Positions 5,001 to 64,000 of a stretch of 64,000 bases of DNA are shown in pieces. A model generated the notes under the pieces. The model searched no databases, was not told where the DNA came from, and saw nothing but the letters and a program-made list of their open reading frames with translations. Position 1 is the first letter of the stretch. Every line of letters begins with the position of its first letter. Position numbers and translations under genes: made by a program. The stretch is taken from NCBI GenBank assembly GCA_963402885.1, contig OY727100.1, forward strand, positions 23,593,665-23,657,664, read 5' to 3'. Origin of the DNA: Antedon bifida. Taxonomy: Eukaryota; Echinodermata; Crinoidea; Comatulida; Antedonidae.

Positions 5001-8000
5001 TACAGTTCAATTCAACTATTCCCTCAGGCTACAGTCCTAGAGCTACAGTTCAATTCAACTATTCCCTCAGACTTCAGTCCTAGAGCTACAGTTCAATTCA
5101 ACTATTCCCTCAGACTACAGTCCTAGAGCTACAGTTCAATTCAACTATTCCCTCAGACTACAGTCCTAGAGCTACAGTTCAATTCTACTATTCCCTCAAA
5201 CTACAGTCCTAGAGCTACAGTTCAATTCAACTATTCCCTCAGACTACAGTCCTAGAGCTACAGTTCAATTCAACTATTCCCTCAGACTACAGTCCTAGAG
5301 CTACAGTTCAATTCAACTATTCCCTCAAAATACAGTCCTAGAGCTACAGTTCAATTCAACTACAGGTATTCCCTCAGACTACAGTCCTAGAGCTACAGTT
5401 CAATTCAACTATTCCCTCAACAGTCCTAGAGCTACAGTTCAATTCAACTATTCCCTCAGACTACAGTCCTAGAGCTACAGTTCAATTCAACTACTTCCTC
5501 AGACTTCAGTCCTAGAGCTACAGTTTAATTCAACTATTCCCTCAGACTTCAGTCCTAGAGCTACAGTTCAATTCAACTATTCCCTCAGACTTCAGTCCTA
5601 GAGCTACAGTTCAATTCAACTATTCCCTCAGACTTCAGTCCTAGAGCTACAGTTTAATTCAACTATTCCCTCAAACTACAGTCCTAGAGCTACAGTTCAA
5701 TTCAACTATTCCCTCAGACTACAGTCCTAGAGCTACAGTTCAATTCAACTATTCCCTCAGACTTCAGTCCTAGAGCTACAGTTCAATTCAACTATTCCCT
5801 CAAACTACAGTCCTAGAGCTACAGTTCAATTCAACTATTCCCTCAGACTATAGTCTTAGAGCTACAGTTCAATTCAACTATTCCCTCAAACTACAGTCCT
5901 AGAGCTACAGTTCAATTCAACTATTCCCTCAGGCTACAGTCCTAGAGCTACAGTTCAATTCAACTATTCCCTCAGACTACAGTCCTAGAGCTACAGTTCA
6001 ATTCAACTATATTTATCAGCATCTTGTTTCACTTGTCAATCCAACTAAAAGATTATAAATTGAAACAATAACATAAATAGAACTTGTAGTAACCTGAACA
6101 ATGTTTAGAATTAGTGTCAATTTGGTAATCAATTTAAGTAGAGAATGCAATATTTAATAGAATGAACGCACTGAACTATTTTTTTAAAGATATAGATTTA
6201 CAATTTCAATGGTACAGTATTTCATTGCACTGCACCTAGAATCAATACACTCAAAAAATCTAATAAGACAATTCATGTCTCACCAAAGGACTTCAAATGA
6301 TTTCAAGTCCAGGACATTTTGAAAGTTTACACACTGTACTGGGTTATTCACCGATCCAGAAATGAATTTTATAGTCTAGATTAAGTGATTTACATTTGAT
6401 TAGATTTAAATCAGCTAAAAATATTATAAAAAATATTGACCCAATGGCTTAAAATTCAGCTTCATTTCAAGCCAACATCCACCACCTCAAGTATTCATTA
6501 TACCTGTTGTCATGTGTCAATAGATTGTAACTTTTTTAGACGTATTCACAGATAACATTTTGCATTCATCTAATTTAGACTATTAGTTTGTTGCATGACT
6601 GTTTGTTGGTGAGATGTACTGATTTAACTCTTATAACTTTGGTTGTACACTTCATAACTATTTTCTATGTTTTTAATTAGGATTAATTTTTCCTTGGTTT
6701 CTTTTTTAAGAATATTTTTGTCTATATACTCCCTAGTTTTGTTTTTTTAGTTATGTTATCCCAGATTTTCAAGATTTTTTTAAATTTTGATTAAAATTTT
6801 AAAATGTATTAATATTAAATGACCATGGACAATTATGGACAATTGACCCTTGCCCTTTGAACTTGAACCATAGCCAAGAGCTGTTCAATTTGTTTTTGCA
6901 GCCCGGACCACAACCCTGATCACTACAAATGCGTTCACAACACAACCAGGTAAACCAATTAATTTACCTAAATTTTCAAATCCAACTAAATTGGTAATTA
7001 TTCAGCAAATGTCCTCAAAGTATTCATTTACATAATAATAATTTTGCTATACTTTTATTATTTGGCACACAACATTTATTTTAAATTTCTAGCTTGTTGG
7101 AGTAGCTTAAAATGTTGCTACCCCAAATTTGCAGAGTACGGTACTTTTTGCATTGAACAGCTTTTTTTCTTTTCATTTATTTGTTCTTAGATTTTCTTGT
7201 TTTTATAAGAAAATTTAAGAAATACTGCATGATGTTTGTTTGCCTGTGTCTTAATATGTGTTTAATAATAATGCTTTATTTATAAATGATAATATATTAA
7301 CATTGTGATGTGTAAAATTGTTTTTTAATAATAATTATTTTAATTTAAATTAATAAACCTTATATACTGCCCTGGATGTTTACTAGTTTTTAATAAAAAA
7401 TGAACTAAATATACATAAAATAAATTCAAAAATATTACCATTATGCTTCTTGTTGTCTAACCTACAATAAAATAAGTCCTACCTTTTACTTACTTACAGT
7501 ACTTATGCTAAAATATAACCTTAATACTGTAATATAAGTCCTTACCTATGCTTGCCTAACTTTACATGCTTAGTATACCGTATACTTTTTATGGTGTTCT
7601 TTTAATAAAAATGCCCTTTGCATGCATGTTTGCTATAAACTTCATAACATGATTGCATGAATGCAATGCGCATTCATGTTGGCTGACTGTATTTTACATA
7701 CTTATTAACTAGTAACATGAATGTAGTTGATGTGTTTGCTGTGAACTATTTTAATATCCATACTACATACCTATGTGATTTGCCTGTCTTATGTTATAAA
7801 ATATAAAAAAGAAATATATAACTTAACTAATGTGCATGGTAATCCACCTGTATATTGTGCAAGGCCTTCTGTTTTTACCATTAATTTACTATCATAATAT
7901 TTAGAGTACACCTGTATAATGATCATGAGTCTGCCACATAATTATGTGAAAATGTTATTTAGAGTAGAGAGTACAGATGTTTACTATTATATTCATTCAA

Positions 8001-27790: not shown

Positions 27791-28129
27791 CATAACAAAA
27801 CCCATGATTTAGTTATAAATTACTGGTAAATGGGAACAATGGAATCATTTTACTTATATTCTATACAATTTTAGAGTTTTTCTTAACCATCAGTATTGTT
27901 AATTGTGTAAACCTAGCATTTTAAATTTATAAAGTAGTCCTATTTTTTTGTATAGGTAAGTGGGTTTGCTGTAATTGCATGCATGAAGAGTAACAATATG
28001 TGGCCAGTCCCATTATCCCTTGAGCTTTGTTATAATAAGAAAGTAGAGAAATATACTCATCGATCGGTCAAAGGTCAAGATTATTACATTAAAAGAATGA
28101 AGTACATTGACAATTAGGATCACTAAACG

Positions 28130-31100
28130 GGACTATAGTACAGGGATTTTTTCGAAAAATGGCCAAAATACACACTTTTTAAAATACGGTTATTATGCAA
28201 TAATATTGCTATATATGTGCATATTGCGTTATAAGCATCTTATAGACGTATAGTAACCATTTATGTCAAAAAATAAAAAGGTCGAAAATTGGCCACTGCG
28301 CATGTCAATTGTGCTATAGTAACCAGCTTTATGTCAAAAAACAAAAGGGTCGAAAATCGGCCTTTTTTCGAAAATTTCGGGATTTTTAAAAAAAAATGGC
28401 CAATTTTCGACCTTTTTATTTTTCGATAAAACTGGTTACTATAGCACAATTGACATGCGCAGAACCCATTATTCGACTCTGCGCATGTTTATTATGCTAT
28501 AGTAACCATTTATGTCAAAAGTGGTTACTATAGCACAATTGACATGCGCAGAACCCATTATTCGACTCTGCGCATGTTTATTATGCTATAGTAAACATTT
28601 ATGTCAACAAATAAAAGGGTCGAAAATCGGCCATTTTTCGAGAATTTCCCTGTACTATAGTGGTAACTATAGCACAATTGACATGCGCAGAACCCATTAT
28701 TCGACTCTGCGCATGTTTATTATGCTATAGTAACCATTTATGTCAAAAAATAAAAGGGTCGAATTTGCTATTTTTCGTAAATTTGTCTTTACTATAGTAC
28801 AGGGATTTTTCCAAAAATGGCTAATTTTCGACCTTTTTATTTTTCGATAAAACTGGTTACTATAGCACAATTGATATGCGCAGAACCCATTATTCGACTC
28901 TGTGCATGTTTATTATGCTATAGTAACCATTTATGTAAAAAAATAAAAAGGTCAAAAATTTGCTATTTTTCGAAAATTTCTCTGTACTATTATAGTACAA
29001 GAATTTTTTCCAAAAAATGGCCAATTTTCGACCTTTTTATTTTTTGATAAAACTGGTTACTATAGCACAATTGACATGCGCAGAACCCATTATTCGACTC
29101 TGCACATGTTTATTATGCTATAGTAACTATTTATGTCAAAAGTGGTTACTATAGCACAATTGACATGCGCAGAACCAATTATTCGACTCTGCGCATGTTT
29201 ATTATGCTATAGTAACCATTTATGTCAAAAAATAAAATGGTCGAAAATTTGCTATTTTTCGAAAATTTGCCTTTACTATAGTACAAGGATTTTTCAAAAA
29301 ATGGCCAATTTTCGACCTTTTTGTTTTTCGATAAAACTGGTTACTATAGCACAATTGACATGCGCAGAACCCATTATTCGACTCTGCGCATGTTTATTAT
29401 GCTATAGTAACCATTTATGTCAAAAGTGGTTACTATAGCACAATTGACATGCGCAGAACCCATTATTCGACTCTGCTCATGTTTATTATGCTATAGTAAC
29501 CATTTATGTCATAATACAAAAGGGTCGAAAATCGGCCATTTTTCGAAAATTTCCCTGTACTATAGTACAGGGATTTTTCAAAAAATGGCCAATTTTTGAC
29601 CTTTTTATTTTTCGATAAAACTGGTTACTATAGCACAATTGACATGCGCAGAACCCATTATTCGACTCTGCGCATGTTTATTATGCTATAGTAACCATTT
29701 ATGTCAAAAGTTGTTACTATAGCACAATTGACATGCGCAGAACGCATTATTCGACTCTGCGCATGTTTATTATGCTATAGTAACCATTTATGTCAAAAAA
29801 TAAATAGGTCGAAAATCGGCCATTTTTCGAAAATTTCCCTGTACTATAGTACAGGGATTTTTCCAAAAACGGCCAATTTTCGACCTTTTTATTTTTCGAT
29901 AAAACTGGTTACTATAGCACAATTGAAATGCGCAGAACCCATTATTCGACTCTGCGCATGTTTATTATGCTATAGTAACCATTTATGTCAAAAAATAAAA
30001 AGGTCGAAAATTTGCTATTTTTCGAAAATTTCCCTGTACTATAGTACATGGTTTTTTCAAAAAATGGCCAATTTTCGACCTTTTTATTTTTCGATAAAAC
30101 TGGTTACTATAGCACAATTGACATGCGCAGAACCCATTATTCGACTCTGCGCATGTTTATTATGCTATAGTAACCATTTATGTCAAAAAATAAAAAGGTC
30201 GAAAATTTGCTATTTTTCGAAAATTTCCCTGTACTATAGTACACGGATTTTTTCAAAAAATTGCCAATTTTCGACCTTTTTATTTTTTGATAAAACTGGT
30301 TACTATAGCACAATTGACATGCGCAGAACCCATTATTTGACTCTGCGCATGTTTATTATGCTATAGTAACCATTTATGTCAAAAAATAAATAGGTCGAAA
30401 ATCGGCCATTTTTCGAAAATTTCCCTGTACTATAGTACAGGGATTTTTTCAGAAAAATGGCCAATTTTCGACCTTTTTATTTTTTGATAAAACTGGTTAC
30501 TATAGCACAATTGACATGCGCAGAACGCATTATTCGACTCTGCGCATGTTTATTATGCTATAGTAACCATTTATGTCAACAAATAAAAGGGTCGAAAATC
30601 GGCCATTTTTCGAAAATTTCCCTGTACTATAGTACAGGGATTTTTCAAAAAATGGCCAATTTTCGACCTTTTTATTTTTCGATAAAACTGGTTACTATAG
30701 CACAATTGACATGCGCAGAACCCATTATTCGACTCTGCGCATGTTTATTATGCTATAGTAACCACTTGTGTCAAAAAATAAAAAGGTCGAAAACTTGCTA
30801 TTTTTCAAAAATTTTCCTGTACTATAGTACAGGAATTTTTTCAAAAAAATGGCTAATTTTCGACCTTTTTATTTTTTGATAAAACTGGTTACTATAGCAC
30901 AATTGACATGCGCAGAACCCATTATTCGACTCTGCGCATGTTTATTATGCTATAGTAACCATTTATGTCAAAAGTGGTTACTATAGCACAATTGACATGC
31001 GCAGAACCCATTATTCGACTCTGCGCATGTTTATTATGCTATAGTAACCATTTATGTCAAAAGTGGTTACTATAGCACAATTGACATGCGCAGAACCCAT

Positions 31101-34100
31101 TATTCGACTCTGCTCATGTTTATTATGCTATAGTAACCATTTATGTCAAAATACAAAAGGGTCGAAAATCGGCCATTTTTCGAAAATTTCCCTGTACTAT
31201 AGTACAGGGATTTTTCAAAAAATGGCCAATTTTTGCCCTTTTTATTTTTCGATAAAAGTGGTTACTATAGCACAATTGACATGCGCAGAACCCATTATTC
31301 GACTCTGCGCATGTTTATTATGCTATAGTAACCATTTATGTCAAAAGTGGTTACTATAGCACAATTGACATGCGCAGAACCCATTATTCGACTCTGCACA
31401 TGTTTATTATGCTATAGTAACCATTTATGTCAAAAGTGGTTACTATAGCACAATTGACATGCGCAGAACCCATTATTCGACTCTGCTCATGTTTATTATG
31501 CTATAGTAACCATTTATGTCAAAATACAAAAGGGTCGAAAATCGGCCATTTTTCGAAAATTTCCCTGTACTATAGTACAGGGATTTTTCAAAAAATGGCA
31601 AATTTTTGCCCTTTTTATTTTTCGATAAAAGTGGTTACTATAGCACAATTGACATGCGCAGAACCCATTATTCGACTCTGCGCATGTTTATTATGCTATA
31701 GTAACCATTTATGTCAAAAGTTGTTACTATAGCACAATTGACATGCGCAGAACGCATTATTCGACTCTGCGCATGTTTATTATGCTATAGTAACCATTTA
31801 TGTCAAAAAATAAATAGGTCGAAAATCGGCCATTTTTCGAAAATTTCCCTGTACTATAGTACAGGGATTTTTCCAAAAACGGCCAATTTTCGACCTTTTT
31901 ATTTTTCGATAAAACTGGTTACTATAGCACAATTGAAATGCGCAGAACCCATTATTCGACTCTGCGCATGTTTATTATGCTATAGTAACCATTTATGTCA
32001 AAAAATAAAAAGGTCGAAAATTTGCTATTTTTCGAAAATTTCCCTGTACTATAGTACATGGTTTTTTCAAAAAATGGCCAATTTTCGACCTTTTTATTTT
32101 TCGATAAAACTGGTTACTATAGCACAATTGACATGCGCAGAACCCATTATTCGACTCTGCGCATGTTTATTATGCTATAGTAACCATTTATGTCAAAAAA
32201 TAAAAAGGTCGAAAATTTGCTATTTTTCGAAAATTTCCCTGTACTATAGTACAGGGATTTTTTCAAAAAAATGGCCAATTTTCGACCTTTTTATTTTTTG
32301 ATAAAACTGGTTACTATAGCACAATTGACATGCGCAGAACGCATTATTTGACTCTGCGCATGTTTATTATGCTATAGTAACCATTTATGTCAAAAAATAA
32401 ATAGGTCGAAAATCGGCCATTTTTCGAAAATTTCCCTGTACTATAGTACAGGGATTTTTTCAAAAAAATGGCCAATTTTCTACCTTTTTATTTTTTGATA
32501 AAACTGGTTACTATAGCACAATTGACATGCGCAGAACGCATTATTCGACTCTGCGCATGTTTATTATGCTATAGTAACCATTTATGTCAACAAATAAAAG
32601 GGTCGAAAATCGGCCATTTTTCGAAAATTTCCCTGTACTATAGTACAGGGATTTTTCCAAAAAAGGCCAATTTTCGACCTTTTTATTTTTCGATAAAACT
32701 GGTTACTATAGCACAATTGATATGCGCAGAACCCATTATTCGACTCTGCGCATGTTTATTATGCTATAGTAACCACTTATGTCAAAAAATAAAAAGGTCG
32801 AAAACTTGCTATTTTTCGAAAATTTTCCTGTACTATAGTACAGGGATTTTTCAAAAAATGGCCAATTTTCGACCATTTTATTTTTCGATAAAACTGGTTA
32901 CTATAGCACAATTGACATGCGCAGAACCCATTATTCGACTCTGCGCATGTTTATTATGCTATAGTAACCATTTATGTCAAAAGTGGTTACTGTAGCACAA
33001 TTGACACGCGCAGAACCCATTATTCGACTCTGCGCATGTTTATTATGCTATAGTAACCATTTATGTCAAAAAATAAATAGGTCGAAAATCGGCCATTTTT
33101 CGAAAATTTCCCTGTACTATAGTACAGGGATTTTTTCAAAAAAATGGCCAATTTTCTACCTTTTTATTTTTTGATAAAACTGGTTACTATAGCACAATTG
33201 ACATGCGCAGAACGCATTATTCGACTCTGCGCATGTTTATTATGCTATAGTAACCATTTATGTCAACAAATAAAAGGGTCGAAAACTTGCTATTTTTCAA
33301 AAATTTCCCTGTACTATAGTACATGGTTTTTTCAAAAAATGGCCAATTTTCGACCTTTTTATTTTTCGATAAAACTGGTTACTATAGCACAATTGACATG
33401 CGCAGAACCCATTATTCGACTCTGCGCATGTTTATTATGCTATAGTAACCATTTATGTCAAAAAATAAAAAGGTCGAAAATTTGCTATTTTTCGAAAATT
33501 TCCCTGTACTATAGTACAGGGATTTTTTCAAAAAAATGGCCAATTTTCGACCTTTTTATTTTTTGATAAAACTGGTTACTATAGCACAATTGACATGCGC
33601 AGAACGCATTATTTGACTCTGCGCATGTTTATTATGCTATAGTAACCATTTATGTCAAAAAATAAATAGGTCGAAAATCGGCCATTTTTCGAAAATTTCC
33701 CTGTACTATAGTACAGGGATTTTTTCAAAAAAATGGCCAATTTTCTACCTTTTTATTTTTTGATAAAACTGGTTACTATAGCACAATTGACATGCGCAGA
33801 ACGCATTATTCGACTCTGCGCATGTTTATTATGCTATAGTAACCATTTATGTCAACAAATAAAAGGGTCGAAAATCGGCCATTTTTCGAAAATTTCCCTG
33901 TACTATAGTACAGGGATTTTTCCAAAAAAGGCCAATTTTCGACCTTTTTATTTTTCGATAAAACTGGTTACTATAGCACAATTGATATGCGCAGAACCCA
34001 TTATTCGACTCTGCGCATGTTTATTATGCTATAGTAACCACTTATGTCAAAAAATAAAAAGGTCGAAAACTTGCTATTTTTCGAAAATTTTCCTGTACTA

Positions 34101-35258
34101 TAGTACAGGGATTTTTCAAAAAATGGCCAATTTTCGACCATTTTATTTTTCGATAAAACTGGTTACTATAGCACAATTGACATGCGCAGAACCCATTATT
34201 CGACTCTGCGCATGTTTATTATGCTATAGTAACCATTTATGTCAAAAGTGGTTACTGTAGCACAATTGACACGCGCAGAACCCATTATTCGACTCTGCGC
34301 ATGTTTATTATGCTATAGTAACCATTTATGTCAAAAAATAAATAGGTCGAAAATCGGCCATTTTTCGAAAATTTCCCTGTACTATAGTACAGGGATTTTT
34401 TCAAAAAAATGGCCAATTTTCTACCTTTTTATTTTTTGATAAAACTGGTTACTATAGCACAATTGACATGCGCAGAACGCATTATTCGACTCTGCGCATG
34501 TTTATTATGCTATAGTAACCATTTATGTCAACAAATAAAAGGGTCGAAAACTTGCTATTTTTCAAAAATTTTCCTGTACTATAGTACAGGAATTTTTTCA
34601 AAAAAATGGCTAATTTTCGACCTTTTTATTTTTTGATAAAACTGGTTACTATAGCACAATTGACATGCGCAGAACCCATTATTCGACTCTGCCCATGTTT
34701 ATTATGCTATAGTAACCATTTATGTCAAAAGTGGTTACTATAGCACAATTGACATGCGCAGAACCCATTATTCGACTCTGCGCATGTTTATTATGCTATA
34801 GTAACCATTTATGTCAAAAAATAAATGGGTCGAAAATCGGCCATTTTTCGAAAAGGTCGAAAAGTTGCTTTTTTTCGAAAATTTTCCTGTACTATAGTAT
34901 AGAGATTTTTCCAAAAATGGCAAATTTTCGACCTTTTTATTTTTCGATAAAACTGGTTACTATAGCACAATTTACATGCGCAGAACCCATTATTCGACTC
35001 TGCGCATGTTTATTATGCTATAGTAACCATTTACATCAAAAAATAGAAAGGACGAAAATTTGCCAGTTTTCGAAAAAAAATTGCCAAAATACGCACTTTT
35101 TAAAATATTATATATGCTATAATATGTGCATATATTGCGTGAAATCATCTTATAGACGTATAATAGCCAAATATTATGGCATAATAATAATAGTATTTTA
35201 GTGAATATTTTGACTATTTTTCAAAAAACGACGAACTTGAATTGACATGCGCAGACCA
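28130..35258. repeat. Palindromic satellite array, about 7.1 kb
   Basis: A head-to-tail array of a foldback monomer. The inner core of about 76-87 bp pairs TGGTTACTATAGCACAATTG and CATGCGCAGA with TCTGCGCATG and CTATAGTAACCA around the centre ACCCATTATTCGAC. Full monomers of about 195-205 bp add outer arms (GGTCGAAAATCGGCCATTTT against AAAATGGCCAATTTTCGACC) and meet at the palindrome GTACTATAGTAC. Core-only and full monomers alternate. Larger blocks repeat almost exactly: 373 bp (31054 to 31427), 1265 bp (32468-34409 region) and 2010 bp (29701 to 31711). The edges at about 28160-28260 and 35080-35180 carry a distinct longer monomer (CACTTTTTAAAATA, CATCTTATAGACGTATA) in the same orientation. 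Long open frames inside are repeat by-products. Confidence 0.95.
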
Positions 35259-36460: not shown

Positions 36461-39400
36461 GGTTCATCATACCTGTGATCCTTCCCCTTCTCTTCTTGGC
36501 TGCTGCCCTCTTTTCCTGGCGCCGTACCTAACATTAAAAAAAAAAACATGTCTTTAGTACTTTGTAGTTCTGCAGTTTTAGTTCTAACAGGGTAATTTCG
36601 GTCGCAAGGTATTGGTTTAATCTTAAATCTTTGTTCACACGACGCATGGGCGCGCCCCATAAGTAATTTGACCAATCACGATGCGGTGGATCATCTAAAC
36701 TGTCGCTTGTGGTTTTTCAACTCACTTGCGTTGTGCCTACGTCGTTGCGTTGCGTCCAAGTGGGAACTTAGCTTAAGGATGTTGTTCGGCCGCGAGATCG
36801 GGTGAATAGATCAATCTATTAAGTCGATTGATCGACTAGCAATCAATAAGTACCTGTATCTGTGCCTCCTGAACCTGTTGCTGGCTTGCTTTCTTCCTTC
36901 TTTTTAGTCTCCATCTTTTCATCTTCTTCTGCATAGTTCCTGTAACAATAAACAAAACATGTTGTGTGCTTGGCCACTGCAAGTTTATAACTTGTTTCAA
37001 TCTCTTTTTAAAAAACTGTTTTTACATTATATTTTATTCTTTATGTTTAATTGTGCCAATACTACACTTTTGCTTGGTTCGCAACGTAAATGATTTAACC
37101 AATCACAAGCGATGGATATATTATTCGAACTGTCGCTTGTGATTGGTCAACTCGCTTGCGTTGCGTCACGTCGACGTCCTTGAGCTAAACGTTGCGTGCG
37201 TCTCAAGTGAACCACGCTTTAGGTCCAAGTATAGTATTGGAAGCATTCTCTTATTGGAATTGATATAGCACCGTTCCTTTAACCATAGGTCTGTTTGTTC
37301 TGTATAGTAGGCCTATACGTACACTAGGAGATACTGGCAGTATTTACCACCTATAATATTCTAAATATTATATTTATACCAGAATGATAACGTAATAATA
37401 GTAATTCAGACACTCACCATTTTGAATCTTTGGATTCTCCATACGCTCCACTTTTACCTGATAACGACGTATAAAAATACGAGAATTACTCTTTTGTTTA
37501 GGTTGTCTGTTAGGTTACTAAATACTAAAGGTTTTTTTTGCGAGAGATACTACTGATGATTTTATTTATTTATTCGGTATATAAAAATATATTACAAGAC
37601 GACAATCAAGGACTGAAATGAATTGTATTACAAATAAATAAAAATTAGTTAAAATTGCTATAAAAATAGAAACATCTTATTAAAATTAGATATCGTACCA
37701 TAAAACTATAAAACATACATGAATAAAAAACCTTAAAACATTCAATTATTACATATCTCAAAAAGAGCTAGTGGTGCCTATTAATTATATCCACCATGGT
37801 GGGAACTGGAGACGACCTAAGTCTACTGGTTTTACAATGAGGTACTTCTAGAAAGCGGTTGAATCTGAGAGACCGAGCTGGCTTATGAAGAGGGGGAAGT
37901 ATTTCTCTAAACAGCTCGGATTTTAATAAGCCTTCCCCGAAAGACAACACCAGTTTGTTTCTTCTCTCAACAAGAGTAGGTAAACCAGTAACAGACAATG
38001 CATGATCATAGCACAAATAGTTGTTACCTAGCATGATTCGCAATGCTCTTTGCAGTTGCGACTGTTTTAATTTCATTGCTCCAAGACAAAAATAAGAATT
38101 CGATAAGTATATAATTAGTTAAACCATACTAAAACGACTTATGTTGGGTGATTGGCCACTAGAAGAGTAACTGGATTGACTAGAAGAGTAACTAGATTAA
38201 CTAGAATAGTAACTAGATTGACTAGAAGGGTAACTAGATTGACTAGAAGAGTAACATATTTTAGTGGAAGAGAATTGTGTACTTACGGAATACGAGGAGG
38301 ATGAGGACAAGAACGACAACAGCGCCAACTAACGCTAGAACACCAATGACAATGCCGGCGACAGCACCACCAGACAAACCTATAGATGCATATATGAATC
38401 ATAAATTATAATGACGTAATATTATAATATATAACGACGTAATATAACAAGAGGGTGTTTTAAATTTCAGATACGCGTTTAAACACACCTATGACAGTTT
38501 AGTTGATTCTTACCTGTGCTTGGCTGCGATGTGGATGGAATAACTGAAATAAAAAAAAAATGAATGAACTAAAAAGCAATAGTATTATCGTATAGAATTA
38601 TAGCAAGATAGACACGTTGTAAATTAATGTTAAATAAAGCAAACAAATGATAAATATATGTGAAAGAAGTGTACTTTCACTGTTTTTGTTTCATAATATA
38701 TAGTGACGTCGAAGGGTGTTTTAACTGTAAAAGTCAGTAAGTAGAAATGTCTTGCTTTTCTGGATGAGTAACAGAATACTTACTCAAAGGACACGCGATA
38801 TCCGATGCGTTGCCTGTTCCTATTTTGTTAGTACCAAAACACGTGATATTAACACATTCAGTTCCTTTCAATTCGTACACTGCGTCGGCTTCCCTCACTA
38901 CTTCACCGTCTACTTCAAACTCGTACTGATACACTGCTGGATTCGCTTCACTGGTGCATTCAACTTTGTTGCCTGTCTGGTTCAAATACATCTCTGGCTC
39001 ATCTATTAAAAACAATTATACTTAGACCTATTATAAATCATAACAACAATTGTAAACTTCTTTTTGTAAAAAAAAATATGTTTGCTTGTACTATTATACT
39101 TCCAATGAAGGCACTCACGGCGTTTCATATTTTCCAATTCACAATTTGTTTTATCTATATAGCGCCACCAGTCGATATTTTTTAATTTTGTTGTAAAAAA
39201 AATTTCACTCTTCCCTGGTAAAAACTCACATCTGTAATATACGTATGGAATACCATCTGTGCCAAAATATTTTTTTTTTCTTTTTACTAATATTTAGTCG
39301 AATCGTCTTTTTTAAAACTAGTCTAGGCTACAGCTGGAGTTGTGCGGCGCAAAATTTAAAACAAATACGTTTGCATTCTAGAATAATTAATGTTTCTTGT

Positions 39401-42040: not shown

Positions 42041-42476
42041 GGTTCTGACTGGGACGCGTCGCAAGTATTTTAACCAATCACAAGCGAGAGTTCGGAAGAT
42101 CCGTCGTAATTTGTGATTGGTCAAATGTATTGTTTGTGCGTCTCAGCGTATACGCAGCGTCTCAGCATCTCAGCGTATACGCAGAATCTCGGCGTATACG
42201 CAGCATCTCGGCGTATACGCAGCATCTCAGCGTATACGCAGCGTCTCGGCATATACGCAGCGTCTCAGCGTATACGCAGCATCTCAGCGTATACACAGCG
42301 TCTCGGCATATACGCAGCGTCTCAGCGTATACGCAGCGTCTCGGCGTATACGCAGCATCTCAGCGTATACGCAGCATCTCGGCATATACGCAGCGTCTCG
42401 GCGTATACGCAGCATCTCAGCGTATACGCAGCATCTCGGCATATACGCAGCGTCTCGGCGTATACGCATGGTCCTA
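42041..42476. mobile_element. Foldback family 1, copy 8, carrying a 19-bp minisatellite
   Basis: The left part (42041-42135) is a normal family member: GACTGGGACGCGTCGCAAG, TTTAACCAATCACAAGCGAG, TTTGTGATTGGTCAAATG. From about 42140 to 42468 it is replaced by about 17 copies of a 19-bp unit, GTATACGCAGCGTCTCAGC, with AT/GC variants. The closing part reads CATGGTCCTACCATGG. Because 19 is not a multiple of three, a stop-free unit opens all three frames on one strand and two on the other. None is a gene. Confidence 0.85.
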
Positions 42477-43357
42477 CCATGGAGCTATTATTAAGTTCCA
42501 TGATTCTAGTAATGTACAGAGTAAGCAATTAACGCCTATAGTTGATTAGTATACTCAATAAAACACCATACCAAAAAACAATTTGAAGTATAATTGATAT
42601 TCACAGTCTCTCATATTCTGCAACTGTATTCTTCTTTTATATTTTGGTAAAACTTAATTTTCTTTTACTAAACAGTTTTTTTTATCCTAACATCGCCCGA
42701 CATAATTAATAGACGCGGTTCTCTGCAGTATACGTACCCTATGTGACCGTTATAAAATGTAATTTACTGTATAGTTAATACAAGTCTCCGTCATCAGTTC
42801 AGTGTTTTCCCCCAAAATGTTAGATTGTGAATTACTTTTATTTATATAATGAATCCAATAAATAATATGCAGACGTCATTAATTAAATCCAGACGTCATT
42901 TATTTCTATCCAGCCGTCATTCATTTAAAATAAGACTTTTTATTTTAACGAATGCATTTGAAAAGGTATACGTGGCTCAGTTATAACAAAATAGAAAACT
43001 ATGATAACATAAACTACTTTCCTTATTCCGTAAATCCAATATTTAATATAAAATATTTTACAAACAAGTGTGTCCCTGCACACTCAACCACAACTGAGCG
43101 GAATAAGGGAAACAATAGAACAAATGAAGAGAAGAATATCGTAGAACTACACACCAGGAACTAGATTAACATAATATGTGTGCAGCCAGACCAAAACTAG
43201 GCACTTGGTGAAAATTAATTATATATTAAGAAAACTAATTATTATTAATTTTAGCAAATAAATTAAAGTAAGAATACAAAAATACAGTAAAGAAAGAAAA
43301 CATCATTCTTGTAGTTATAAACATACTAGTCGCCACAGATATTCAAGATTCCATTAG

Positions 43358-47618: not shown

Positions 47619-50570
47619 TTAAGTGTTAATAGATATCTCTTCATTGTCTTCACTATGAACTGGTTTATAGGACACCCTTCCATCATCGTTCCTAAAAAAC
47701 AAAAATAAGTTTTTGTATAACTTTTTAAAAACATAATCAGAGCTTTATTATACATAATTATGTAGAACTTACTTTTTTACTTCTGTGTTCTTTTGTCTTC
47801 TCTTTTTAACTATAATAATAATCATGATCATGAAAAACATTATATAGACACATTAACAACGTAACACGCTTTAGATACCTTGGTGTATGGGCTACCTACA
47901 ATGATGTTCATATTGGAAATCAAGAAGTAAAATACAGAATCAATTCAGCCAAAGGAGCATTTGCAGAGAATAGAGCATTGCTTACCAACAGAACGATCCA
48001 CCTACAAACAAGAATGATGTTTCTTAATGGTCTAGTTAGGAGTAGACTCACCTATGGTTGCCATGCTTGGAGAGCAACAGGAAGTGAAATGTCCAAACTT
48101 AGCACAACATACAAAACCTTCCTAAGAAGAATGCTAGTGAATGGCTTTCAAAGAGTCTGCCCACCAAACCATGTAGACATATCCTCAGATGAAGAAACAG
48201 ATGAAAACTATATAGACTGGCGTTACGTAATTGATAATGATGATCTCTACAAAATTACTGGCTGTCAACCGCTAGAAGAATATGTCTACAAGCAACAATT
48301 CAACTGGATCGGACATGTAATTAGAAAAGAAAATGAAGATCCTACAAAAATTCTTACTTTTCATACAACCCAAAGTAAACGAAGAGGTCGGAAGATACCA
48401 TCAGTACTTGATAGAGTTGTACAACAAAGTCAACTTACTAGATGCAACTTCATTAGAGCCTGCTTCAACAGAAATTTATAATTCCCAGCAATGTTTTAAC
48501 TGTATATATGAACTGTTTTATAAGTTGTTTTGAGACTGTGTAATTTGGTAGTAGTCACTCTCATACTGTAGGCCTACATTTAAAAGTAACACATCCAAAT
48601 GCCAACTTTAAGTCAATGGCTACCAGATGTCTCTGTGAGACGGTTATTTGAACCAGTACCAGTACCAGTACCAGAAGCATAGATTGTTAAATGTGTTTAT
48701 AAATAATGTACATTTTGTCGTCATTATTTCAATCTGAATCATTATCATCGTCATTAATCATCGTAATATTAGTCACCTTGATAAAGTTAAAATAGTCTCC
48801 TTCTCCATACCACAAATATAGACAAAATTCTTTTGCAACAACATTAAATTAAACTAAACATTTACCTTTTTTACAAACAAAAACCGTAAGTATAATGAAG
48901 AGTATGACTGATCCTACGCCTAATATTAGACCAATGACTACCATTGGAGGTAAAACCGCTGAAAAGAGTAAATTTCATTTCACATGGTGAGATTGTAGTT
49001 TATATTTGCTATACGCTAGATAATTTTAAATAGAGGAATATTATAATAGCCTAGAGTAGTACAAAAGTTGAATACAGTAGGCCTATATGTTGTGCGGTAC
49101 ACCAGCGAATCACTCATATACAGTATTTGTTTATAATTAAAGTAGGCCTAAGTATATGTTTTTCAAATGAATTCAAATTATATGAACAATAATAAATACT
49201 TACGATCTTCGTTGTGATCTAAAGAAACAAGAATGAGAACACTGTATTATTCATAAGTTTTAAAACAATTTTATTTAAAAAATTTGAATAAATATCATAT
49301 TCAATTAACGGTTTACAAGTAACATACTGAACTGAAAATACACAAATTCGGAACATGATGTCATAACCACGACGAACGTTGTATATTGATACGTTGCTGT
49401 TGAAAATTGTATCGAAATTCTGCGGTATGTCCTAATGATAACAAATTAAAGATAAATAGAGTTTAAATAAACATATTACGTATATATTACCTTCGTTTTC
49501 AAAACTGTGAAAAACCACTTGTCCACTGAGTGTGGTTGCTTCACACGACACGTTATACCTAGAATCATGTTCTGTTAGTGTAAACTCTATCTTGTTGTCT
49601 GCAGACTTTAACGTGTTTGAATTCACAACTACTCTGACAGTGGCTGGATTAGGATAACTAATCACCTCGCATATTACATGGTTGTTGTCAAACTCTGTTG
49701 TCACAAATTCAATATCTGTAAAATTAAATAATAATTCAAACAGTAATAGAAAGTAATTTAGGCTTGGTTCACACTAGAGACGCAACGCAAGCGTATTTTA
49801 AACTCTCCTTTCTTTTTTATAAATTTCTTTCCACTTACAGTTAACTTTTAGCGAGGCAAAGTTCCAAGAAGTCGTTCTAGTTTTGTTAATTACCGTCTGA
49901 CAACTGTAGTTACCAGCATCTTTCCTATCAACTTCATTGATCATCAATGATGTGACGTCATCGTTTTGTGAGAAACGTGGATCATCCACGTTAATGATCT
50001 TGTTACCATGGTACCATGTGACATTTTCCACTGTTTTATTTGTTTCGGTCTTACACGTTATCTCAACTTGTTCTCCTTCGTTTACAACACTATCATTTAT
50101 CTCAATAATTGTCTTATCTGTAAAAAAAATCACGACCCAAATAAAATAAGAAACGTAATTGTCTAATATCGCATAGTATACATGCAATGTAATAAAGCAA
50201 GTAAATAAAATAGGGCACAGAGTATTAACGTGTTTACTTACAATTACGTGATACTTCTGAACACGCTGTAAGATCTGAAATTAAATATTAAATAATAACT
50301 AAAATGGGTATTCTACTGTACATATACTTTACAAATTACATTCTAATTTATGGGCGTGGCATGAGGGGTCACTGGGCGATTTAAGTTCACTCTACGATTG
50401 TTAAGTTCGTGTTTCAGGTCCAAAATCTACCAAATCAATAATACAAAGTTAGAGGGTTAGCCAGTCAAACAACTTAAATACCAGCTGTCCAATTATGGTA
50501 CAAATGAATAGTACCTACCTGATAATATACACACGACACATATTACTAAGTGTGCAAACACGACAGCCAT
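47619..50570 (-). CDS. Gene 6: two-Ig-domain receptor lacking the V-type domain, ITIM-like tail
   Basis: Single-pass Ig superfamily protein of about 268 residues. Minus-strand exons: 50519-50570 (signal, MAVVFAHLVICVVCILS), 50242-50274 (11-residue linker with one cysteine, LTACSEVSRN), 49839-50117 (Ig, VEITCKTETN and AGNYSCQT), 49491-49715 (Ig, HVICEVISYPNP, YNVSCEATT), 49204-49218 (stalk), 48866-48958 (membrane, PPMVVIGLILGVGSVILF), 47773-47809 and 47619-47691. The joins are in frame to TAA at 47619-47621. Every other Ig gene here has a V-like exon after the signal. Only 244 bases separate the signal and linker exons, and no V exon is there. The membrane-proximal Ig lacks the extra cysteine pair of genes 3, 4, 5 and 7. 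The tail contains VSYKPV, an ITIM consensus. A LINE fragment lies in its tail intron. Confidence 0.82.
47850..48482 (+). mobile_element. Non-LTR retrotransposon (LINE) fragment, opposite to gene 6
   Basis: The plus-strand frame from about 47850 to the stop at 48479-48481 reads as the C-terminal part of a LINE reverse transcriptase: RFRYLGVWATYNDVHIG, LVRSRLTYGCHAWRATGSE, FLRRMLVNGFQR, WIGHVIRKENEDPTKILTF. The reverse transcriptase core and endonuclease are missing, so it is dead by 5' truncation. No poly(A) or simple-repeat end is obvious. It lies in the gene 6 intron between membrane and tail exons, in antisense orientation. It belongs to a different lineage from the fragment at 37556-38085. 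Confidence 0.8.
49761..49797. mobile_element. Foldback family 1, terminal fragment
   Basis: Only the first end remains: GGCTTGGTTCACACTAGAGA then CGCAACGCAAGCGTA. In the intron between the two Ig exons of gene 6. Confidence 0.7.
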
Positions 50571-58272: not shown

Positions 58273-61200
58273 ATGAAATTATTGTCATTTTTCATAATAT
58301 TTACTACTTACAAACAAATACACTGTCAAGGTAAGACAAATTAATACTATTGTAATATTGATTTTATTATATAAGAAAGTTTTAGAAAGAATGTTTGCAA
58401 GAATTAAAATCATACATGAGAAAATGAATAAAATGAATATATAACAAGAGTATTAGTTAGTAGTGTACTAACCCTATTTTATTTATATATTTTATGCATA
58501 ATTATATTTATATGAAGAGAATAAAAGTGGGACAAACCTACCAAAGAGAAGAAAGAAATGTCTTTTAATCGGTTTCAAAGACATTATGTTATAAATATGG
58601 TAGTGATATGCCCAAATAGTAGTGACATTATCATGTCCATATATGGGCATATCACTTTTTTTCTACTTAAAGTTTGATAGACTTGTAGAAGAGCTGTATA
58701 AAGTCTTAATATTTTTCTTTCAGACCAATTGATCACAATTGTTATCTCCGATTATGTAACTGCTGTAGAAGGGGAAAACGCCGAACTGTTCTGTAACTAC
58801 ACATTGCACAATTATACAGACAATGTTGATATTATCTGGTACACTCGAATTGGGAATTACTATTACACTGTAGCTTCAGAACCGGACATAGACGACAACG
58901 GTTCTGGAATCATTATAGATAAAACACGTTATGACATCATAGATTCAGCAACTTTACTTATCTACAATGTGTCCAGATATGACGCCGGACAATACAAATG
59001 TCAAGTTAAGAGTTCTGTAAATAGTATTGAGAATAATAAAACAACAAATTTTACTGTTATTCGTAAGTATTAGTATCACTATACAGATTGCTATTTTGGA
59101 GTACATTGTGCCTGATTTGATACTAAAATTACACTTTCAATCATTCAAAAGAATCTACAAAATATCCTTTTTATTGTGACGTCAAAGATTACAGTATTCT
59201 ATTTTATTTTTTTTGTGTGTGTGTTTGAGATAATTTATTCATAAACAAGATTTCATTCAAATCTGAAAGCATGAAATACAAGTCATAACTTACATGTTTG
59301 AAACAAGAACTAGGCCCTCTGGGAGACCAGTCTTTGACTGAAGAGGTTACCCAGTATAAATATATATTTCAATCAATCAATCAAAACTGACTTATGATTG
59401 ATAGCTATTATAACATTATTTCAATAGAATCTACAAAATATCATTTTTAATGTGACGTCAATGATTACAGTATTCTTGCTATAATATGTTGAGTGTATGT
59501 AGACCTGGCTATTGTGTATGATTGTAAATGTTCATCTGGTTTGCAATTAACAATGTGTCCAGAAGGTATTTACCATCTATTTTATACCATTGGTTGTTTT
59601 TTTGCCAAGAATAACCAAATAGCGAATTCATTCACTATCCTTCTTAAAGGTGGCAATCCTGTTCACAAGACAAACATACCCAAGATGCTCTACATAAACA
59701 AAGTCTTATTACAAGTCTTTGGGAGTGGAGTTGTAATTATTTGGCATTAGAAAAAATCCTGACATATGACAGGACTTGAACCCAGGACGCTTGAATTGGT
59801 AGCCAAGCATCATAACCACCAATATAAAGTATTTTATACACAAACTATTTACACAAAGTATTTTTGTAAATATTAATTATTATACCAGCAATCCTTACAT
59901 ACACTTACACACATTAACTGGTTTACATTCTTTCTCTCAGATTTTGCTTTACCTGTAACTATGGAAATAAACCCAAAGAGAGTTGAAATTGGAAAAACTA
60001 CTAAATTTTCCTGTTTCGTACAATCAAGCTATCCTAAAGCTAATTTTACTGTTTGGAAAGGTTCTCGAGAAATGATTCCGGATCAACACAGATACTACGA
60101 TGCCTATAACGGAATGTGGATTACTAATGCGGAGAAGGAAGATACAGGAGATTACCGTTGTTTGGCCGGTAACGGAATTGAGCAACATTTCTCCGATTCC
60201 GATAATTTAACGGTGATTTGTGAGTATGATATAAAAGAAATACCTGATAAAACGAACTGCAATCACTTTTTTCTGTTATCTTGTTACGTATATGTTTTGA
60301 AATTAAATTTAAAAAAACAATTATTTTGTGAACAATTTTGTTTTATTGTTTTTGCAATACTACTTATTATTTTCAAATATACTGTGTAATGTTTGCTTGT
60401 ATGTTTGTATGTACGTTTGTCGTGCACTTGCAACATGACGTACGTCTTCAAATTTCAAACTATTTCAAACTATTCTTACAGACCATATGCCTATTGATTT
60501 TCAGGAAAATATATAGGCCTATTGGTTACAGTATATTAAAATCTCGAGTTATCTTTATCTTCAATACGGGCCGGTATATTAAATAGCACGCCCTCTGTCA
60601 ATCTGTCGAAGTATATTTCTCAATTTCTAAAATCTTAACTTTTCTGATTTTGCCTCCAGATGCTCCTAAGATTTACCCATTAAAACCAGTCATTGTCTAT
60701 CCCTATGAAACGTATTGGCTTGAATTCGAATTTGACGCTGAACCAGCTGGAACCTACCAGTGGTTAGATAGCGATGGTGACGTCATCGAAGGCGAGACAA
60801 ATCCATATTTGGAACTGTTTTTCCACAAATCAGACACGGGACTTTTGACAAACTACACATTTGTTGTGAACAATTCTCTTGGAAGGAATAGAGAGACGGT
60901 AGAAGTCTATGTAGATAGTGAGTCTAACAACAATAATGTATAATAATGATAACAATGCTATTCATGCATACTATTATGAACATGATGGCCTACAACATTA
61001 GTGACAGTCAACACTTATATGAGCAAATTTATATTATTATCTTTCTTACAGTACTAACATCTGCATTAACAATGGGTGAGGTGTTTATCGTTGTTATTTG
61101 TTCCTGCATCGCCACAGCATTATGTGTGATTTTAGTCATGTATTACTTAAGTAAGTGTGTGACAAAATAAGTTGGTATAATATCTAATACCATGGCTAAA

Positions 61201-62023
61201 TACTAAGTCATAGCTCACATCGAATGATGTTTTGATAATTGTGTAACGTATAATAGGCCTCGTTCCATGAAAACGAGATACATACAATTAATATTATCGA
61301 TTATGAAATGTATATTTTGAGACACATAGAATGTCTTGGTTTTATTGTCAATTACCAAACATCTTTTTAAGAAATATTATAATTATCTCTTAATAGTCGT
61401 GAGCAAAATGTTTAAAATGTTAATAATTCGTCATAATTATTCGATATTGTTTGTTTCCAGATAAACGCCGACATCGAACCAAAAGGTACATTGTTATTTT
61501 CATATGTCTATTGTTCCATTGGTTGTTTTCAATGTCTTATGTTAAGAAATGATAATATATAGGCCCTATAGTTAAGAAATTATAAATGTTAAAGTTCTGA
61601 TGTTGTTTATTTGTTTGTTTTTGTTGCTTACCTTCTTGATGTTAATTTTAACAAATTTGTATTAATAAAGAAATGAATATAGAATTTAGAATATTATTCC
61701 TATTTTCAATCTAGGCTATAAATCAAACTGAATTTCTAAGTGTACTTTACTCTATTAAAACGTCATTTCAAATACATTTTAAATAACTGATACATTTTCT
61801 TCCAGTAACAAACCCTTACCACCAAGGCAGGAGGTAGGTATAATTTCTATTTTTAAAAAATTACTGTAATTTACAAAATAATTATTAGTTAAAATGTAGC
61901 CTGGTGATCTTTTTAAAAAATCTACGTTTATAAACAATGATCAATACAAAACTACTTTTTTAGCCCGACTCTACTCCTCCTAAACAACATACGCCTCAGC
62001 CTATCATGATGCAAACTTTATAA
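58273..62023 (+). CDS. Gene 8, short form: three-Ig receptor with proline-rich tail and no kinase
   Basis: Single-pass Ig superfamily protein of about 381 residues. Exons: 58273-58330 (signal, MKLLSFFIIFTTYKQIHCQ), 58724-59062 (V-like Ig, NVDIIWYTR and DAGQYKCQV), 59941-60219 (Ig2, TKFSCFVQ, TGDYRCLAG), 60660-60917 (Ig3 without the core cysteines, ending VEVYVD), 61052-61150 (membrane, VFIVVICSCIATALCVILVM), 61461-61485 (basic NKRRHRTK), 61806-61833 (SNKPLPPRQE) and 61964-62023 (DSTPPKQHTPQP, stop TAA 62021-62023). Every join is in frame. The tail of about 37 residues is basic then proline-rich and could bind SH3 domains. An acceptor seven bases before the ATG indicates a 5' UTR intron. The last two exons are in a phase that cannot join the kinase exon, so this is an alternative end and not part of the kinase form. 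Confidence 0.75.
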
Positions 62024-64000
62024 TTTGTTTTCTTATTTTATATCGACTAGACACTTCTTTCAATCATCAGCATGAGAAACAGATCAGTAAAAACGGATTC
62101 CTGGGAAATAGCCCGAAACAAATTGGTGTTGAAAGATGTTTTAGGAGAAGGATTTTTTGGAAAGGTGATACGAGCTGAGTTTTACCGTAAGGGTAAAAAG
62201 AGCAAAACTACGGTTGCTGTCAAAACTATCAAAAGTAAAAACACATAACCAATTATATACCTTGTCCATATGTTTATATTATTAAGTTTAAATAAGCAGA
62301 GTTTTGAAATCCAAGATGGAGGCCAAAATAGGGTCCGGAAAATTGGCCCTAATTGCAATGAATTCTAATAGTTCCAAGGTTTCCAAATTTTTCAAGACTC
62401 GATTTGAACAGTAAAATCTCACAGAATTACATTAGGCTGGTACCTCTATCCCTAACAATATAAAAGTTGTTTATATTAAATAAAACTATATATAAAAAGA
62501 AAGGAACTTAAAGTAAGGAATGAATGCAATCTGGCCTATTGACTAATTTTATTTCTATCATTTCTTTTTTTAGAAAATTGCAATAATTCAGAAAAGTTCA
62601 GATTCCAAGATGAATTAAGTTTGATGAAAACATTTAGCAAACATCCCAACATTATAGAACTAATTGGATGTTGTACACTGGAAGGTAATAATATATTTTA
62701 GATTAGTTGCAGAATTGTAAGTTAAAAAAGTTATAAATATGGCAAATACAAAAAGTAAGACACTTTCCACCCAACCGTAAATATATGAAATACAATCTCC
62801 ATCAATCAAAGATATCTTAATTATATTGCGTTGCGTCCAAATGAGAAACAAATCTTTATTTTTCTTCTTAGATCCACTGTACATTGTTCTGGAATATGCA
62901 GCTTATGGAAATCTGCGAGACTACTTATTAAAATCTCGCAAATCTAAAAACATTTTATCGGTACCAAACGTTCATCAAGAATGTGATGATGACGCCGCCT
63001 ATGAAGTTGTCAATATCGCGCCTGTCGCCCTCACTCGGCCAAATGCTGATGATTTGACGTCATTTGCTTGGCAGATTTCTAGGGCTATGTCATACCTGTC
63101 GTCCATACAGGTAAATGTTACAAATATTCAAAGTTAAGACAAGTATAATGAATAATACAGAGGTGGGATCCAGAGAATGGTAAAGGTAAAAGCCCCTTAA
63201 AAAAGTAAGAACATCGTTTGCTTCTGGTCCCGCTTCTCGTCTAATTTCTTACTTTCATTTTCCAATAACATTCCAGAGTTCTGATTGGTTGGGAATTTTA
63301 TCGAATCACAAATAGTTGATAACAATTGTATACGTACAGTGTGTAGTAAGGGCGCATTCAATTCTCGTTAATAAATGTCAAACTACATAGATCATTACAC
63401 ATAATAAATGTCAAACTACATAGATCATTACACATAATAAATGTCTCCATTAAAATTATAAGGTGACAGATCGATTTCTAACAAAAGTTAATTAAATTAA
63501 ATCAATTCATTTCCTAGTGCATTCATCGTGATTTGGCAGCAAGGAACGTTTTGCTTACTTACGATAAACGATGCAAACTGTCAGACTTTGGAATGGCGTA
63601 TACTAAGGAACAGAGTGGACTTTACGAGGACCTCAACCAGGTAGATTAATTATATACCTATCAACCTTTGCAAATTTAATTTCACGGTCAGAGAGGAAGA
63701 GGAACGATTTATACTGTTACGATCTCATATACTCATTCTCATTCTCATACCTATTCTAAATACACATCTATATAACGGTTAGGGGGAAATGAAAAATCAG
63801 CACTGTGGTCATGTTACAAGTGTTGTCAAACAATATAGATTATCTGATAAAACTCCTAGAAAGTAGGAAAGCTTTTTGCCATTTTCCCCTGACTGATAAC
63901 ATAACATGAACTATGCAGGGAGTTGTAAATATTTGAATTTATTTTATCCCTCTGATGTGATTTTATGTTTTTGTAGCCTCAACTACCCATTCGTTGGATG
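58273..64000 (+). CDS. Gene 8, kinase form: Ig-domain receptor tyrosine kinase (runs off the window)
   Basis: Shares exons 58273-61485 with the short form, then joins 62071-62234, 62574-62684, 62872-63110, 63518-63640 and 63977 onward. The join after 61485 is phase 2 and makes Ser. From there 573 codons are open to the window edge. The kinase domain shows the glycine loop LGEGFFGKV, the ATP lysine in VAVK, the helix C region QDELSLMKTF, HPNIIELIGCC, the hinge LYIVLEYA, the catalytic loop HRDLAARN, DFG, and the start of PIRWM. HRDLAARN marks a receptor-type tyrosine kinase, and WEIARNKLVL plus LGEG resemble FGFR/VEGFR/Cad96Ca-like enzymes. An insert of about 40 residues carries a tyrosine (AAYEVVNI) that could be an SH2 site. 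It should phosphorylate itself and partners at the membrane after ligand binding. The C-terminal lobe lies outside the window. A separate promoter for the kinase part (ATG at 62072) cannot be excluded. Confidence 0.8.
58587..58697. mobile_element. MITE family 2, worn copy (gene 8 intron 1)
   Basis: Shares AAATATGGTAGTGATATG, GTCCATATATGGGCA and TTAAAGTTTGATAG with the complete copy at 8075-8237, but the terminal repeats have decayed. It ends about 25 bases before the first Ig exon of gene 8. Confidence 0.75.
59148..59477. repeat. Direct repeat of about 50 bp in gene 8 intron
   Basis: GAATCTACAAAATATC, TGTGACGTCAA and GATTACAGTATTCT occur in the same order at about 59150-59200 and again at about 59427-59476. 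The second copy sits just before a possible exon at 59503. Confidence 0.8.
59503..59565 (+). pseudogene. Possible relic or optional Ig3 exon end in gene 8
   Basis: Between an AG at 59501-59502 and a weak GTATTT donor lies a 63-nt phase 1-1 stretch reading YDCKCSSGLQLTMCPEG at its end. The CxC spacing and closing CPEG recall the end of the four-cysteine Ig3 exon of genes 5 and 7 (ELCPKG, ELYCPTG). The rest of such an exon is absent, and a SINE lies directly downstream. A chance frame is also possible. Confidence 0.3.
59580..59823 (-). mobile_element. tRNA-derived SINE candidate, minus strand (gene 8 intron)
   Basis: On the minus strand the head reads TGGTGGTTATGATGCTTGGC (A-box region) and, about 30 bases later, CCTGGGTTCAAGTCCTGTC, a good RNA polymerase III B-box (GGTTCAAGTCC). 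A body of about 170 bases without tRNA structure follows. The left border is approximate. It is not a functional tRNA, because no cloverleaf closes around the two boxes. Confidence 0.65.
62826..62848. mobile_element. Foldback family 1, terminal fragment (gene 8 intron)
   Basis: GCGTTGCGTCCAAATGAGAA matches only the far end of the family. It lies 23 bases before the kinase exon at 62872. Confidence 0.55.
63371..63440. repeat. 33-bp direct duplication
   Basis: ATAAATGTCAAACTACATAG plus ATCATTACACATA occurs twice head to tail, with a third partial start. Confidence 0.9.
63779..63893. mobile_element. MITE family 3, copy 2 (gene 8 intron)
   Basis: The ends AGGGGGAAATG and CATTTTCCCCTGA are inverted. 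The inside matches the copy at 44169-44284 almost throughout (GTGGTCATGTTACAAG, ATATAGATTATCTGATAAAA). It lies between two kinase exons. Confidence 0.85.

Follow-up and report, generated by a model that had tools for sequence, protein, structure and literature searches.

Near the end of a 64,000-nucleotide (nt) stretch of the Antedon bifida genome (contig OY727100.1, positions 23,593,665 to 23,657,664; hereafter the window) lies a gene for an immunoglobulin (Ig)-type receptor tyrosine kinase (RTK), whose first kinase exon (k1) possesses nested, frame-compatible acceptor sites at the junction between the juxtamembrane region and the kinase (Table 1). The assignment of the locus to a single Ig-type RTK gene is well supported. 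As for its products, we favor, with a probability of about 0.5, the view that the main transcripts encode the kinase, the basic juxtamembrane exon (e6) being joined directly to the acceptor at 62071, or through a candidate micro-exon (e7) to a second acceptor at 62051, or both, and that use of a weak acceptor located farther upstream (61964, the start of e8), which would close the protein with a short kinase-less tail, is mostly unproductive or minor. The locus is known here from genomic sequence alone, and coordinates are positions within the window.

Exons 1 to 6 translate as a single open frame, which comprises a signal peptide (judged by eye), three Ig-like domains, one transmembrane (TM) segment and a basic stretch (NKRRHRTK) in e6, the last of these exons ending in phase 2. 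The kinase exon at 62071 is entered in the same phase, and the tyrosine kinase frame continues through k2-k5, such that the signal peptide, Ig ectodomain, single TM segment and tyrosine kinase of an Ig-type RTK all occupy one frame. A Pfam search of the translated gene identified the tyrosine kinase (E = 3.4e-50) as well as Ig domains. The k1-k5 translation, in which motifs could be read only up to position 64000, since the window ends before the C-terminal part of the kinase, includes the catalytic motifs, namely the glycine loop GEGFFGKV, the lysine in VAVK, HRDLAARN and DFG. An earlier note on this DNA had proposed the positions and phases of the TM, juxtamembrane and first kinase exons, and had placed the kinase in the same gene as the exons before it; translation and frame arithmetic confirm the former proposal and support the latter, the Ig ectodomain included. 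The in-frame ATG at the start of k1 (62072) would allow the kinase to be a gene in its own right, transcribed from a promoter shortly before 62071, but its protein would have no membrane anchor, and the k1 acceptor matches the exit phase of e6, on the same strand and directly after the TM segment and the basic stretch. Strand, domain order and the phase of the acceptor are those expected of a single gene, for which reason we judged a separate kinase gene to be very unlikely.

The kinase is predicted to be of a RET/FGFR-like type. RET (145 bits) and FGFR1 (142 bits) were the top-scoring PDB chains among the best 60 of 1965 matches, and the activation-loop tyrosine aligned with a RET tyrosine; these two scores are nearly equal, and the ectodomain is not specific to FGFR. 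Like this gene, the FGFRs have three Ig domains. The ectodomain nevertheless differs, in that its best PDB matches (among the best 60 of 142) were to general Ig proteins (CEA, titin and contactin), those of RTK type being ranked in the order otk (2e-12), MuSK (6e-9), VEGFR2 (1e-5) and FGFR1 (1.5e-4), and in that its third Ig-like domain is devoid of cysteines. One scan of viral contigs revealed no relative.

The splicing options between e6 and the kinase were assessed by translation and with a home-made splice matrix, built from 30 acceptors and 31 donors in the window that were hand-chosen as trusted sites. The second acceptor, between 62050 and 62051, is entered in phase 0, which is the exit phase of e7, and is open into the kinase. 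The 28 nt of e7 and the 20 nt of the k1 extension sum to 48 nt, and the kinase thus remains in frame with or without e7; in the latter case e6 joins 62071 directly in frame. The e6-e7-62051 route would insert 16 residues, PLPPR among them, and the inclusion of e7 and the choice of acceptor would be coupled in order to keep the frame. The juxtamembrane region, counted between the TM exon and WEIAR at the start of the kinase, measures 35 residues with e7 and 62051 and 19 residues without them; in human RTKs it normally comprises at least 40 residues, according to the introduction of a simulation paper (PMC4361843). The acceptors score 5.1 (e7), 4.4 (62051), 3.6 (62071) and 2.1 (e8). The e7 acceptor equals or exceeds 9 of the 30 trusted acceptors, and the e7 donor (7.1, compared to 7.0 for that of exon 6) equals or exceeds 15 of the 31 trusted donors.

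Because e7 also enters the kinase in frame, only e8 is exclusive to the short form. The frame fit of 62051, the length of the juxtamembrane region and the slightly higher score of 62051 over 62071 suggest that e7 more likely belongs to the kinase form than to the short form. By these sequence measures e7 would be a micro-exon of marginal quality, no less compatible with the kinase form than with the short one. The earlier note had taken e7 as a mark of a kinase-less form, a view that finds no support here, and had regarded the kinase and short-tail paths as mutually exclusive, which holds for e8 and fails for e7.

Table 1. Features of the receptor tyrosine kinase locus, in window coordinates.
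Feature	Position	Strand	Description
Gene as a whole	58273-64000	+	One receptor gene; kinase domain runs past the window end
Exon 1	58273..58330	+	Signal peptide, judged by eye; phase 0 to 1
Exon 2	58724..59062	+	Ig domain 1, V-set type
Exon 3	59941..60219	+	Ig domain 2, I-set type
Exon 4	60660..60917	+	Third Ig-like domain, zero cysteines; resembles third Ig of gene A
Exon 5	61052..61150	+	Transmembrane segment; phase 1 to 1
Exon 6 (e6)	61461..61485	+	Basic juxtamembrane exon; phase 1 to 2
e7	61806..61833	+	28-nt candidate cassette micro-exon; phase 2 to 0; fits the short tail and the kinase via 62051
e8	61964..62023	+	Candidate terminal reading frame; phase 0 to TAA; acceptor weak and donor absent; contiguous with k1, which it extends upstream
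k1 extension	62051..62070	+	20-nt 5' extension from the alternative acceptor; preserves the kinase frame after e7
k1	62071..62234	+	First kinase exon; entry phase 2, exit phase 1
AATAAA	62479..62484	+	Possible poly(A) signal for the short form, in the k1-k2 intron
k2	62574..62684	+	Kinase exon; in frame
k3	62872..63110	+	Kinase exon with kinase insert; in frame
k4	63518..63640	+	Kinase exon; HRDLAARN and DFG
k5	63977..64000	+	Kinase exon; cut by the window end

The chance levels of e7 and e8 were estimated on shuffled introns and on real slices of DNA, and serve only as a guide, since the matrix is home-made and the thresholds were set after e7 and e8 had been seen. A micro-exon at least equal to e7 in quality appears in 4.05% of 2000 intron shuffles; among slices of real DNA, 40 of 614 on the antisense strand and 146 of 1690 from the window contain one, the window slices (here and in the set of 1056 used below) being overlapping and including some true exons, with those over tandem repeats and over 61400-62100 dropped beforehand. 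Such frequencies, together with the direct in-frame junction of e6 with 62071, are consistent with e7 and e8 both being intronic noise and with e6-62071 kinase transcripts being the only ones made. We consider this doubtful, as it would leave a juxtamembrane region of 19 residues, short by the norm cited above, and would rely on an acceptor that scores slightly below the one upstream of it, while ignoring the best donor between 61480 and 62240, that of e7.

The short tail itself was also examined in these terms. As the earlier note had stated, e7 and e8 join in frame to a closed short tail, and e8 has no internal donor. The tail comprises 29 residues (SNKPLPPRQEPDSTPPKQHTPQPIMMQTL, then stop), and e8 contains no GT dinucleotide; both protein models, by the kinase path and by the short-tail path, translate without internal stops. 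Since it lacks a donor and its stop is located 47 nt before 62071, e8 amounts to a 5' extension of k1. The e8 acceptor equals or exceeds only 2 of the 30 trusted sites, and its score is reached by 20% of the AG dinucleotides across the window. When e7 is taken as given, 23% of 3000 shuffles provide a closing acceptor that equals or betters that of e8 and leaves at least 15 codons, and 75% provide a closing acceptor of any kind. A closed tail reached in one step, by an acceptor of at least e8 grade, is found in 99.8% of 1000 shuffled introns, or in 80.7% when at least 15 residues are required. By this measure e8 would be at chance level given e7, and the suggestion that it stands out from chance is not upheld. 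Neither is the e7-e8 path unique, since other closed tails exist at the same locus: read-through of e7 (...PRQEVGIISIFKKLL), read-through of e6, e6 joined to 62051 (RHFFQSSA) and e7 joined to 61900 (27 residues).

From the position of its stop we infer the probable fate of an e8 transcript. Such a transcript runs into k1, and its stop is located 211 nt upstream of the k1 donor (62234). By the usual rule, a stop more than 50-55 nt upstream of a junction marks a target of nonsense-mediated decay (NMD), and the e8 transcript would therefore be such a target if the k1 donor were used; a stable short mRNA would need a poly(A) site. The AATAAA at 62479 was rejected as support for the short form, because at the window density of 2.55 per kb per strand about 1.2 such hexamers are expected by chance in the 456-nt span. 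Use of the weak e8 acceptor would thus give mostly NMD-type unproductive transcripts, or a minor truncated product.

Several observations weigh against the preferred explanation, that of an RTK with nested k1 acceptors and little productive use of e8. (i) The acceptors on which it depends, 62051 and 62071, reach or exceed only 7 and 4 of the 30 trusted sites, respectively. (ii) With each site required to be at least as strong as the observed one, the complete two-step path to the short tail had a frequency of 1.2-2.8%, depending on the minimum tail length, in three sets of 1000 shuffles, and of 2.7-5.7% among 1056 window slices; where only the summed score is required to match, the path arises in 12.7% of 600 shuffles. 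The path is somewhat uncommon owing to e7, to which e8 adds little. (iii) The GC content is 0.50 in e7 and 0.43 in e8, versus 0.23 and 0.20 for their intron, and windows of the same length that are equally GC-rich account for 3.6% (e7) and 2.6% (e8) in the introns of this gene, and for 7.4% and 10.9% across the whole window. (iv) The codon score lies between those of intron and exon (P = 0.079 for e7 and e8 together and 0.16 for e8 alone, under a coding model trained on the same exons that form its positive set). The GC enrichment and the codon score lean toward a real short tail.

If the tail were real, e7-e8 would be a regulated alternative end, served by a separate poly(A) site, and the product a membrane-bound decoy or co-receptor like TrkB.T1. 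The correct frames, the lack of a donor in e8, the base composition, the rarity of the whole path and the presence of an AATAAA would all agree with such a receptor, and kinase-less RTK isoforms have precedents. In TrkB.T1, the truncated NTRK2 isoform, a short terminal exon with a stop after the juxtamembrane exon replaces the kinase exons, has its own 3' untranslated region with poly(A) sites and encodes an 11-residue tail that is identical in rodents, human and chicken (excerpts of PMC8934854). The candidate e7-e8 end, as read from the DNA, would resemble it in being an in-frame alternative end with a stop after the TM and juxtamembrane exons; it differs in that only 47 nt separate e8 from the kinase exon, whereas the TrkB.T1 exon has a 3' untranslated region of its own. 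In DAF-2B, an isoform of the Caenorhabditis elegans insulin receptor and a proposed decoy, alternative RNA processing drops the kinase: a weak donor is not used, the intron is retained, an intronic poly(A) site is employed and the product is secreted (excerpts of PMC7041946). The candidate form here would instead retain its TM segment and require splicing to a weak acceptor. At this locus a decoy like TrkB.T1 is possible, with limited support from the arithmetic of the frames, the base composition and a pair of splice sites that is moderately uncommon. We nevertheless consider a regulated kinase-less receptor unlikely, given the weak acceptor of e8, closure at chance level, the expected frequency of AATAAA, the fit of e7 to the kinase form as well, and a tail that has none of the docking motifs sought and is unlike those of the neighbouring receptors.

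The window harbors other receptors of similar plan: A and C on the forward strand, and D, E, F and G on the reverse strand. Only two Ig exons were found for F, and B (+) is a lone Ig exon. The first Ig domain of the kinase gene, when compared with those of A, C, D, E and G, is nearest to that of G (35% identity, 55.5 bits), the others scoring 29.6-31.6 bits each. Its third Ig domain is similar to the third Ig of A (4266-4517; 36 bits), both being without cysteines. In A, a long minisatellite (4657-6015) directly follows the third Ig exon, and the TM-exon scan found no TM exon for this gene. No Ig exon was detected upstream of a further TM/tail module, X (18970-18645, -). The TM segment of X (LSGGAIAGI...) is similar to the L.GGAV.GI... 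segments of C, D and E, and X may represent their TM/tail module attached to a different ectodomain. Large tandem-repeat arrays occupy 28000-35200 and 42049-42549 within the cluster, and the reading frames at 37768-38118 (-) and 47834-48481 (+) resemble remains of retroelement reverse transcriptases.

In five of the six modelled neighbours (C, D, E, F and X), as in the kinase gene, a TM exon of phase 1-1 is followed by an exon of phase 1-2; in G the TM exon leads straight to the terminal exon. This shared order places the kinase where the neighbours have their terminal tail exon. All six neighbour tails (C, D, E, F, G and X), which are models hand-picked from candidates in the sequence, that of C being incomplete, contain at least one tyrosine. 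The motifs include VRYTEV in X (18970-18240, -) and VSYKPV in F (48958-47600, -), both resembling immunoreceptor tyrosine-based inhibitory motifs (ITIMs), and YEN in E. For D, the TM exon was placed by eye and a further strong candidate exon (36527-36473) was left out. The e7-e8 tail contains no tyrosine and eight prolines; a pattern search of it revealed no SH3 class I, SH3 class II, PPxY or tyrosine motif, and tblastn against the window gave only the self match below E = 0.32. The likeness to the neighbours that the earlier note had seen would hold for the overall plan (Ig domains, TM segment and short tail) and breaks down at the tail, which, as modelled, is not of the neighbours' type.

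Clustered invertebrate Ig-type receptors also include the fester co-receptors (FcoR) of Botryllus, in which splicing can swap tail motifs (excerpts of PMC12065747), and the Alr family of Hydractinia; some of their tails carry ITIM motifs (excerpts of PMC12065747 and PMC11999971). The present cluster differs in its kinase: no RTK is described for either family in the excerpts of these two papers, and the phrase "tyrosine kinase" is absent from the main text of PMC12065747.

A broader reading would combine these elements: in a cluster built on one common TM/juxtamembrane scaffold, the kinase would sit at the phase-2 intron where its paralogues have tyrosine-containing, partly ITIM-like tails, coupled splicing would toggle between a kinase (with or without the proline-rich insert) and a kinase-less form, and the kinase could phosphorylate the tails of the paralogues. 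We regard this combination as improbable; if true, a single cluster would hold a kinase, its substrates and a decoy. The short form as proposed would be a further case of the known kinase-less RTK isoforms rather than a new kind. If real, it would represent an RTK locus that supplies a kinase-less competitor to its own product, amid a cluster of related receptors that have no kinase. With or without the short form, the cluster suggests that kinase and short-tail receptors swap C-terminal modules at one shared intron position.

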